64,000 nucleotides of DNA, taken from NCBI RefSeq assembly GCF_900103485.1, contig NZ_FNHW01000001.1, positions 1,985,306 through 2,049,305 of the forward strand. The letters are read 5' to 3'. Position numbers and translations under genes: made by a program. This stretch comes from Fictibacillus solisalsi (GTDB lineage: Bacteria; Bacillota; Bacilli; Bacillales; Fictibacillaceae). Below are positions 30,652-31,753 of this stretch, in pieces; within the stretch, counting starts at the first letter, position 1; each line of letters starts with the position of its first letter. Under the pieces are notes generated by a model. That model was not told the origin of the DNA and did not search any database. It worked only from the letters and a program-made list of their open reading frames with translations.

Positions 30652-30819
30652 CTACTTTTTCAGCCATTTTTTCACATGCTCCTTCGGATCCCAGCAATTA
30701 AATTTATAGGAAGGCTTCGTATCGAACCCCAGTCTCACACATTCATATTTCATTCCGTTCTCCGTCCGTGAAGCCTTGAAGTTTATACACGTTGCACAGC
30801 AATGGATGTCTTTTTTCAT
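30652..30819 (-). CDS. Small Cys-rich protein (55 residues)
   Basis: GGTGGAG eight bases before ATG 30819 fixes the start; a longer frame to 30897 has no site. MKKDIHCCATCINFKASRTE is followed by YECVRLGFDTKPSYKFNCWDPKEHVKKW. CxxC plus two later Cys residues suggest a zinc site. It ends exactly against the TPM gene stop on the other strand. I recognise it only as a conserved-looking small zinc-ribbon-like protein. Confidence 0.7.
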   Translation of the reverse strand: MKKDIHCCATCINFKASRTENGMKYECVRLGFDTKPSYKFNCWDPKEHVKKWLKK

Positions 30820-30871
30820 GGATGATTCTCCACCTTCTTTACCAAAGTCGTTATCTTCATCATACCGTAAA

Positions 30872-30907
30872 AAAACCGCCCTGCAATGATTTCGCACGGG
30901 CGGTTTT
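30872..30907 (-). terminator. Terminator of the YrzI module operon
   Basis: AAAACCGCCC pairs exactly with GGGCGGTTTT, followed on the minus strand by a T-run, ten bases beyond the second YrzI stop. Confidence 0.85.
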
Positions 30908-30916
30908 GCTTTTCAT

Positions 30917-31066
30917 TTATCTTAAATAGTTCGCCTCGCCAGCCTTCGTATGAGCCGCTTCGAACAATTCGTTCACATTTTGTTGATGCACATAATCTTT
31001 GTACGTTCTTTCATTCTTCCTTAATGAAATGGTCAACGTAGCAAAGAAAAGGTTCAATGTTAGCAT
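30917..31066 (-). CDS. YrzI-family small protein, copy 2
   Basis: 49 residues from ATG 31066 (AGGAGG upstream). It starts MLTLNLFFATLTISLRKNER and has a hydrophobic N-terminal beta/helix segment then a charged part YKDYVHQQNVNELFEAAH. This is the pattern of B. subtilis YrzI (about 49 residues). Its paralogue lies 138 bases upstream, and each is preceded by a 19-residue ORF. Function unknown; in B. subtilis the yrzI mRNA is a target of the ribosome-associated RNase Rae1. Confidence 0.8.
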   Translation of the reverse strand: MLTLNLFFATLTISLRKNERTYKDYVHQQNVNELFEAAHTKAGEANYLR

Positions 31067-31098
31067 ACAGACTCCTCCTTTCCTGCTCTCTTTCCCTT

Positions 31099-31158
31099 TC
31101 AGGTCGTATCTTTCTCTGTTACCATCCAATCCAGAAATACCAGTTTTCGCTTCATCAT
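31099..31158 (-). CDS. 19-residue ORF before YrzI copy 2 (S1025-like)
   Basis: The peptide is MMKRKLVFLDWMVTEKDTT, with AAAAGGAGAGGG upstream. It aligns with the 19-residue ORF before the other YrzI gene: both share L-x-W-x-x-x-EKD and exactly 20 codons. In B. subtilis the short ORF S1025 precedes yrzI and is cut by Rae1 while being translated; I recall an EKD-containing site there. Identity as an S1025 counterpart is inference. Confidence 0.6.
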   Translation of the reverse strand: MMKRKLVFLDWMVTEKDTT

Positions 31159-31204
31159 TTCATACCCTCTCCTTTTCCATTAATTTTTTCGTTTTCGGGT
31201 CTTA

Positions 31205-31351
31205 CTACATGTGAACATTATTCATCAATTTTTCATGAGTCTCTCGGTACATTTTCTTTACATGCTGCTGATGAATCATTCCATTTTGGCTTTTCATTTT
31301 ACGCTGAAACGAAAGCGTAATCGTTCCAAAAAACAAGTTCAGTGTAATCAT
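31205..31351 (-). CDS. YrzI-family small protein, copy 1
   Basis: 48 residues from ATG 31351 with AAAGGAGG upstream. It starts MITLNLFFGTITLSFQRKMK and ends with IHQQHVKKMYRETHEKLMNN. It shares TLNLFF-x-T-x-T-x-S and HQQ-x-V with copy 2, so the two arose by duplication. Cotranscription with the following module is likely because only 46 bases separate them. Function unknown. Confidence 0.78.
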   Translation of the reverse strand: MITLNLFFGTITLSFQRKMKSQNGMIHQQHVKKMYRETHEKLMNNVHM

Positions 31352-31376
31352 TGGGCATTCCTCCTTTCATGTGCAT

Positions 31377-31436
31377 TTAACAGTCCATATCCTTCTCCAG
31401 TGAAAACCAGGTTAATAAAGCAATACTAATCATCAT
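31377..31436 (-). CDS. 19-residue ORF before YrzI copy 1 (S1025-like)
   Basis: The peptide is MMISIALLTWFSLEKDMDC, with AAGGGG nine bases upstream; an in-frame ATG three codons earlier touches that site. It ends 25 bases before the YrzI start. Length and the LTWFSLEKD segment match the ORF of the second module (LDWMVTEKD). Confidence 0.6.
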   Translation of the reverse strand: MMISIALLTWFSLEKDMDC

Positions 31437-31471
31437 TTCTGTCATCCCCTTCACGGTTAGTTGTATAAAAA

Positions 31472-31503
31472 AAGGCCGCTGGGATTCAGATCCCCGCAGC
31501 CTT
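31472..31503 (-). terminator. Terminator-like hairpin just before the YrzI modules
   Basis: On the minus strand AAGGCTGCGGGGAT pairs with ATCCCAGCGGCCTT and is followed by seven T. It ends only 36 bases before the first 19-residue ORF, so downstream expression needs read-through or an internal start site. Confidence 0.8.
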
Positions 31504-31519
31504 CCCTAAAAAAGGGCGC

Positions 31520-31560
31520 AAAAAAGCCACAGGGCATCATTCGACCTGCGGCGCTTTTTT
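31520..31560 (-). terminator. Terminator after the 36-residue ORF
   Basis: On the minus strand AAAAAAGCGCCGCAGG pairs with CCTGTGGCTTTTTT (one mismatch), nine bases after the stop of the 36-residue ORF. Confidence 0.8.
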
Positions 31561-31568
31561 ATCAAAAA

Positions 31569-31679
31569 TTACAAATTAAAAAAGCTGTGTCCATTGGCCG
31601 AACATCGTAGTGTTGCATGAAATTGTAGTTGTGCAGAAATAGATTGCAGTGATGCTGCAGCTGGTTGTAATCTCATCAT
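31569..31679 (-). CDS. Possible 36-residue peptide gene
   Basis: AAGGAGG stands nine bases before ATG 31679. The peptide starts MMRLQPAASLQSISAQLQFH and ends HSFFNL; it is low in charge, rich in Ala, Gln, Ser and Leu, with one Cys and no clear signal peptide. A well-formed promoter lies upstream and a terminator directly downstream, so at least the transcript looks real. I do not recognise it; it could instead be a small RNA. Confidence 0.45.
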   Translation of the reverse strand: MMRLQPAAASLQSISAQLQFHATLRCSANGHSFFNL

Positions 31680-31724
31680 GGTGTTCGACCTCCTTCATAA
31701 ATTCTGATTATTCTTTACAGGGTA

Positions 31725-31753
31725 AGTATAACCATAACTTGGTAACTTGTAAA
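31725..31753 (-). promoter_or_regulatory. SigA-type promoter of the small-gene cluster
   Basis: Minus strand: TTTACA (31748-31753), 17 bases, TATACT (31725-31730). Confidence 0.72.

Follow-up and report, generated by a model that had tools for sequence, protein, structure and literature searches.

A 64,000-nucleotide stretch of the Fictibacillus solisalsi genome (contig NZ_FNHW01000001.1, positions 1,985,306 to 2,049,305; hereafter the window) carries an operon in which two genes of the YrzI family each follow an open reading frame (ORF) for a 19-residue peptide containing Glu-Lys-Asp (EKD). We interpret it as a translation-stress operon of the Bacillus subtilis yrzI (spyTA) type with two stages of control, and put the probability of this interpretation at roughly 0.7. 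In the first stage, for which there is in silico support, a leader ORF, together with a three-way RNA switch, would set whether transcription passes two terminators. In the second, extrapolated from B. subtilis, translation of the 19-codon ORFs would let the A-site endonuclease Rae1, which reportedly cuts best directly 5' of a Lys codon, cleave GAG|AAR before the Lys codon and destroy the message once translation recovers. This kind of operon and its link to Rae1 are already known. The open-licence literature searched did not show the doubling of the EKD module, the wide spread of the peptide family, the invariance of GAG or the leader switch, and some of them may be in print.

The peptide-YrzI modules and their counterparts

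The whole operon lies on the minus strand and consists, in order, of a promoter-like site, the leader ORF, two terminators, peptide A, YrzI-A, peptide B, YrzI-B and an end terminator. An earlier note on this DNA had described the tandem modules, which are present as it said and all on the minus strand, but had overlooked the upstream leader ORF with its double-terminator attenuator. Peptide A (MMISIALLTWFSLEKDMDC, 31377..31436) and peptide B (MMKRKLVFLDWMVTEKDTT, 31099..31158) are both 19 residues long and have L-x-W-x-x-x-EKD in common, encoded by GAG AAG GAT in A and GAG AAA GAT in B, with predicted Rae1 sites at GAG|AAG and GAG|AAA; the equal length, motif and codons reported before were all verified in the sequence. 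YrzI-A (48 amino acids, 31205..31351) and YrzI-B (49 amino acids, 30917..31066) are paralogues, as had been claimed: YrzI-A retrieves YrzI-B in the same genome at E 7.1e-7 with 38% identity. YrzI-A passes the PF09501 cut-off of 23 bits with 24.4 bits and YrzI-B, at 22.5 bits, falls 0.5 bit short of it; YrzI-B matches profile A1 at 6.1e-22, a profile that itself contains YrzI-B. In TIGR02413 YrzI-A scores 20.9 bits, far below the cut-off of 47.05, and YrzI-B has no match at E≤1.

The proposal that peptides A and B are counterparts of S1025 is borne out by their position in the same operon, their size, the position of the Lys codon and selection at the protein level. We compared loci of the B. 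subtilis group (spizizenii, mojavensis, inaquosorum, halotolerans, tequilensis and others; strain 168 was not included), in which the order is leader ORF, YrzI and a 17-codon ORF, with a further ORF seen by eye in L079. The 17-codon ORF encodes MLRMELLMHYTMEKDQV in three loci and a near-identical peptide in others. By its length and its Glu-Lys pair, this EKD ORF beside yrzI is almost certainly S1025, which is 17 codons long and reportedly cut at Glu-Lys. The B. subtilis yrzI operon (S1025, also spyTA) and the window are alike in having a leader ORF, YrzI, a short ORF with EKD, a rae1 gene and GAG before the Lys codon. They differ in that in the B. subtilis group a single YrzI comes first and a single EKD ORF after it, whereas the window has peptide-YrzI-peptide-YrzI, with an EKD ORF before each YrzI. 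S1025 is the first characterised Rae1 substrate (PMC11780869), and candidates for direct Rae1 decay include S1025, S1024, S1026 and yrzI (PMC10632193). In the open-licence literature searched, only two Rae1 cut sites are reported and cleavage is reported for B. subtilis alone; the sites in the window are predicted.

Within the window's family, a YrzI alignment search found the operon in 33 of 34 genomes. The earlier note had named loss of the EKD codons in carrier relatives as evidence that would tell against a cleavage site; EKD is retained in 31 of the 33 carriers, the window's own counted, with EKN in G015 and EMD in G028, and the codon conservation extends across the order, where Glu is GAG in 86 of 86 EKD peptides. 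Paired EKD peptides occur in six of the seven genomes of the window's genus; the seventh (G022) has the peptide between its two YrzI ORFs only, the upstream peptide being missing. In the sister genus g4, EKD is present in 7 of 8 genomes in the peptide that lies between the YrzI ORFs and absent in 8 of 8 from the 19-codon ORF in the upstream place, and genera g2 and g3 have a single peptide and a single YrzI. The doubled EKD peptide is confined to one genus (6/7 genomes), where doubling of the unit would have placed one predicted cut site ahead of each YrzI ORF on the mRNA. A predicted cut site before each YrzI therefore describes that genus alone, G022 excepted, and not g4, and in most lineages the peptide comes after the last YrzI. 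At locus L131 (f18 g21), YrzI ORFs also alternate with peptides, the second with ERD, not EKD, perhaps through an independent doubling. A DNA pattern for WxxTEKD matched in 26 of 299 genomes, and outside the family no match resembled a YrzI-linked short ORF.

The window genome carries rae1 (PF05991, E 1.0e-57). Because Rae1 is matched in 396 of the 397 genomes of the order, a test for co-loss of Rae1 and peptide over the order was abandoned; the sole miss, G412, looks like a metagenome-assembled genome, and its lack of Rae1 therefore says little. Within the family, the sole genome of the 34 without a YrzI match is G014, whose DNA beside menA aligns with that of G015 at 87% over 473 nucleotides, ending ∼130 nucleotides before the start of the G015 leader ORF. 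Among the genomes listed with a Rae1 match, G014 alone has that match in two pieces, with an in-frame gap of ∼14 model positions and no stop. This co-loss is in keeping with a functional link of Rae1 to the operon and, at n = 1, proves nothing. Past the end of the alignment, G014 has an apparent sigma-factor fragment (by eye; L216, L191).

Constraint on the peptide and on the codon before lysine

TIGR02413 has matches in 170 of the 397 genomes of the order. The set examined, which does not take in all of these 170, comprises 139 YrzI loci from 137 genomes, 54 genera and 28 families: 30 fetched automatically, 76 by coordinates and 33 from the window's own family. L195, the same locus as L068, was excluded; L045 and L186, which overlap within one genome, and L145 and L170, two loci of another, were all retained. 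Another 26 named loci (L071-L096) lie outside the 139 and may duplicate some species in it. At least two YrzI ORFs lie within the examined stretch in 47 of the 139 loci, and a YrzI tree built to date the duplication had low support.

We scanned these loci for short ORFs with a ribosome-binding site that adjoin YrzI and end in EKD, KD or KG[LF]. The scan yielded 112 motif peptides (86 EKD, 14 KD and 12 KG[LF]) in 107 of 139 loci, 40 of 54 genera and 21 families; the controls gave none on the reverse complement, none in reversed sequence and one locus over 20 dinucleotide shuffles. The 107 carrier loci are a lower bound, since the automatic count skipped peptide B of the window and the carrier loci L122, L123, L125 and L206; for the window's locus and for L206, the YrzI start had been assigned to a position that lies too far upstream. 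Most of the peptides (64/112; 48 EKD, 14 KD, 2 KG) lie after the last YrzI, 27 (23 EKD, 4 KG) before the first and 21 (15 EKD, 6 KG) between YrzI ORFs. Counted from the C-terminus, the EKD type W-x-x-x-E-K-D-S-T and the KG type W-Y-x-x-V-K-G-L-T share the positions of W and K. We note that a second peptide type ends in W-Y-[KER]-[KQ]-V-K-G-L-T, with the Lys codon equally far from the end and GTG before it (L041, L146, L148, L156, L163, L168, L173, L183, L204, L205), and that after the EKD peptide a tiny ORF such as MLSVHVLIFTILFSKKNN resembles a truncated YrzI N-terminus (L055, L062, L133, L138, L142).

The peptide is selected as a protein. Six sequences of peptide A give a ratio of nonsynonymous to synonymous polymorphism (pN/pS) of 0.05, 12 of peptide B and its g4 counterparts give 0.22 and 16 from g2 give 0.18, and four other groups have values of 0.28 to 0.47. 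Frame-shifted controls reach at least 1.0 in the window's family; in f45 one shifted frame gives 0.57 versus 0.39 in the real one.

A second constraint lies on the nucleotides. For the GAG seen in all 86 EKD peptides, the background is 26% of Glu codons in long frames and 23.5% of those in the YrzI genes that accompany the peptides, and all 25 EKD genera use GAG exclusively. The neighbouring codons vary freely, with AAA 54 times and AAG 32 times for Lys, and GAT 64 times and GAC 22 times for Asp. Among the KD and KG peptides, different residues precede Lys (Q, V, K, R, L, M, S, G, Y), and the codon for this residue has G as the last base in 23 of 26, bringing G before the Lys codon to 109 of 112 peptides overall. 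The loci are mutually related, and codon counts are therefore not independent; the product of the GAG backgrounds over 15 families is 10^-9.6. Since GAG is invariant while the Lys and Asp codons vary, a constraint at the RNA level appears to act at the predicted Rae1 cut position.

Several findings weigh against the two-stage interpretation. No motif type was found in 14 of 54 genera, most of which have a similar-sized ORF with the Lys codon replaced (EED, EMD, TGD, VDD and others, in endings such as VEEDST, MEMDTA and ETGDST), which implies that the peptide does not depend on the Rae1 site. In family f20 the pN/pS of a shifted frame (0.41) is lower than that of the real frame (0.47). The last codon, if Thr, is ACC in 62 of 63 EKD peptides (background 16-19%), which Rae1 does not explain. 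Finally, a 26-codon ORF before bmrC in the B. subtilis group, which we take to be bmrX, ends in ...EKIEGG with GAA|AAA at its Glu-Lys pairs, as against GAG|AAR in the window; if it is cut there, G before Lys is no general rule for Rae1, and we rejected such a requirement as a general one.

A different view, plausible if rather less probable than its opposite, is that the peptide itself is the functional product, an antitoxin or a nascent-chain arrest peptide whose C-terminal W....D-[ST]-[TA] is read by the exit tunnel or by YrzI, with Rae1 cleavage secondary. Such a product would account for the protein-level selection, for the persistence of Asp-Ser/Thr and the upstream aromatic residue in several of the lineages that lost Lys (EEDST, EEDSA, TGDST, YTDST) and for the upstream 19-codon ORF that all eight g4 genomes keep without EKD, and it sits well with the operon name spyTA, seen in a cited title. 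A role of the peptide alone, however, does not predict a nucleotide constraint such as invariant GAG or G before Lys whatever the residue. In the two-stage reading, too, YrzI and the small peptide are probably a small-protein toxin and its counterpart, for which the published operon name is the sole basis.

An unlikely explanation of the codon pattern is that what preserves GAG and ACC is an RNA hairpin, or a Shine-Dalgarno-like pause (GGAG, 9 nucleotides before the last codon), and not a nuclease. At p≤0.05, 10 of 45 EKD and 5 of 10 KG variants have hairpins, such as GGUGGAG-AAAGA-UUCCACC and AGGUGA-AAGGCC-UCACCU, that surpass those of synonymous recodings, and besides the prevalence of a final ACC, G is the last base of the codon before GAG in 81 of 86 EKD peptides. 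The same recoding test, however, gave only 1 of 13 KD variants and no variant of the window's family at p≤0.05, yet GAG and ACC are kept in that family. A hairpin at the EKD site was rejected as a general explanation and is lineage-specific.

The leader and its proposed alternative pairings

Upstream of the modules, the leader Shine-Dalgarno sequence (region 1, GGAGGTCGAAC, 31683..31693) precedes a leader ORF of 36 amino acids (MMRLQPAAASLQSISAQLQFHATLRCSANGHSFFNL, 31569..31679), which has no Pfam or NCBIfam match at E≤1. Within this ORF lies region 2 (GTTCGGCC, 31596..31603), whose potential, alternative pairing partners are region 1 and terminator 1. The terminator 1 hairpin (GCCGCAGGTCGAATGATGCCCTGTGGC, 31526..31552) is followed by T6, its 5' arm and loop constituting region 3, and the terminator 2 hairpin (GGCTGCGGGGATCTGAATCCCAGCGGCC, 31474..31501), found by a scan for terminator-like hairpins, is followed by T7. 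A leader ORF and then an intrinsic terminator thus stand before the operon, as in an attenuator of the BmrB type.

The arrangement recurs across the order. In the 260 nucleotides before the first YrzI or peptide, at least one terminator-like hairpin is present in 117 of 139 loci (47/54 genera) and at least two in 72, with a shuffle fraction of 0.000. The leader Shine-Dalgarno sequence fits GGAGG[ACU][CU]GA[AG] (GGAGG[ACT][CT]GA[AG] in DNA letters) before the start codon in 99 of 139 loci, and in 91 of these 99 the pattern [ACG]UUC[AG][AG]CC lies 25-150 nucleotides 3' of it, with none in the reversed segment. Regions 1 and 2 covary, as in the pairs GGUCGAAU/AUUCGACC, GGUUGAAC/GUUCAACC and GGCUGAAU/AUUCAGCC, and the leader of the B. 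subtilis group likewise has such a pair with compensating bases (GGCTGAAT/ATTCAGCC). Watson-Crick pairs account for 243 of the 272 positions of the 1:2 pairing over 34 genera, compared with a mean of 232.8 and a maximum of 242 in 2000 permutations. Region 2 fits a second partner as well, namely the 5' arm and loop of terminator 1: over 33 genera the mean with its own arm is 15.76, and permutations have a mean of 13.30 and a maximum of 14.64, none of 500 being as high. In truncated folds with the Shine-Dalgarno sequence masked, region 2 pairs with the terminator arm in 85 of 89 loci versus 19 with a shuffled arm, and in the window the probability of the terminator stem is 0.81 free, 0.34 with the Shine-Dalgarno sequence masked and 0.81 with region 2 masked.

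These in silico results support a covarying three-way switch made up of the leader Shine-Dalgarno sequence, a segment of the leader ORF and the terminator arm. In free RNA, or with ribosomes running through the leader, terminator 1 would form; a ribosome sitting or stalled at the leader start would leave region 2 free for the 5' arm of the terminator, and the operon would be read.

The leader evidence has weak points of its own. The patterns fix most letters, so that the 1:2 covariation concerns few variable positions and its margin is narrow. Full-length equilibrium folds with the Shine-Dalgarno sequence masked show region 2 paired to the terminator side in no more than 8 of 89 loci and a terminator weakened by >0.3 in 11 loci only, and the mean terminator probability is nearly flat (0.90 free, 0.83 with the Shine-Dalgarno sequence masked, 0.89 with region 2 masked). 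With the antiterminator so weak in these folds, the switch would need co-transcriptional folding. A generic terminator scan of the region listed none of the operon's terminators, and the sigma-A-like promoter TTTACA-17-TATACT (31725..31753, 10/12 matches) is at chance level, with 4 promoter-like sites in the region versus 3.7 in shuffles.

Leader and terminators might instead be an ordinary upstream small RNA (sRNA) or gene end with no switch, the operon being transcribed by read-through only, which we regard as improbable. The near-constant mean equilibrium probability would suit this, as would the yrzI-yrhG interval of B. subtilis, which a published table lists as sRNA ncr2184/ncr60, co-precipitating with Hfq; however, the covarying and mutually exclusive 1:2 and 2:3 pairings and the hairpins in 117 of 139 leader stretches, set against the shuffles, argue for the switch. 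That both 19-codon ORFs are chance look-alikes, as their shortness, below the size for family libraries, might suggest, is rejected on their conservation, the pN/pS values and the shuffle controls.

A search of Rfam found nothing near a gathering score. A search for the leader pattern in the family hit 5 of 34 genomes, and in four of these the hit lay at the operon; with 13 hits in the backward control versus 5, it is uninformative on other operons.

Comparison with bmrBCD, wider meaning and neighbouring ORFs

bmrBCD of B. subtilis resembles the window in its leader ORF, alternative stem-loops and terminator before the operon, and in a cryptic short ORF that Rae1 reportedly cuts in bmrBCD and would be predicted to cut in the window. 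It encodes an ATP-binding cassette (ABC) transporter, and its terminator sits inside the leader coding region, unlike that of the window. If bmrBCD does also pair an attenuator with a Rae1 ORF, Rae1 would be an off-switch of attenuator-controlled stress operons.

We suggest tentatively, at a little under even odds, that the yrzI operons of the order share a dual sensor of translation status, in which the leader switch turns the operon on when ribosomes are held up close to the start of the leader and the Rae1 ORF turns it off at resumption. Its parts, held with the same reserve, would be two: a three-way switch (GGAGGUCGAAY / RUUCGRCC / terminator arm), and a short, ultra-conserved ORF in which G invariably precedes the Lys codon. 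The leader switch, if real, would link leader attenuation and A-site cleavage in one circuit, and it offers a testable reason for the joint rise of yrzI and bmrCD messages under disturbed translation. The signals for Rae1 are poorly defined because, in the literature searched, reported cut sites number two; a peptide family in 40 genera with one invariant codon amounts to a natural mutational scan of the Rae1 site, one that includes lineages replacing Lys and a genus with a doubled site.

The operon closes with a terminator read from the sequence (CCGCCCGTGCGAAATCATTGCAGGGCGGTTTTTTT, 30869..30903). Beyond it, also on the minus strand, a small protein with five cysteines (MKKDIHCCATCINFK..., 30652-30819) is encoded, and ORFs like it adjoin the operon elsewhere in the genus, in two further genomes at least (L005, L206). 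A hydrophobic ORF of ∼26 codons (MF..VMGLVIT..IALIIGTEVSVE) recurs 3' of the operon in several families, at L055 (about 1991 in the oriented locus), L062, L068, L127, L142 and L159.
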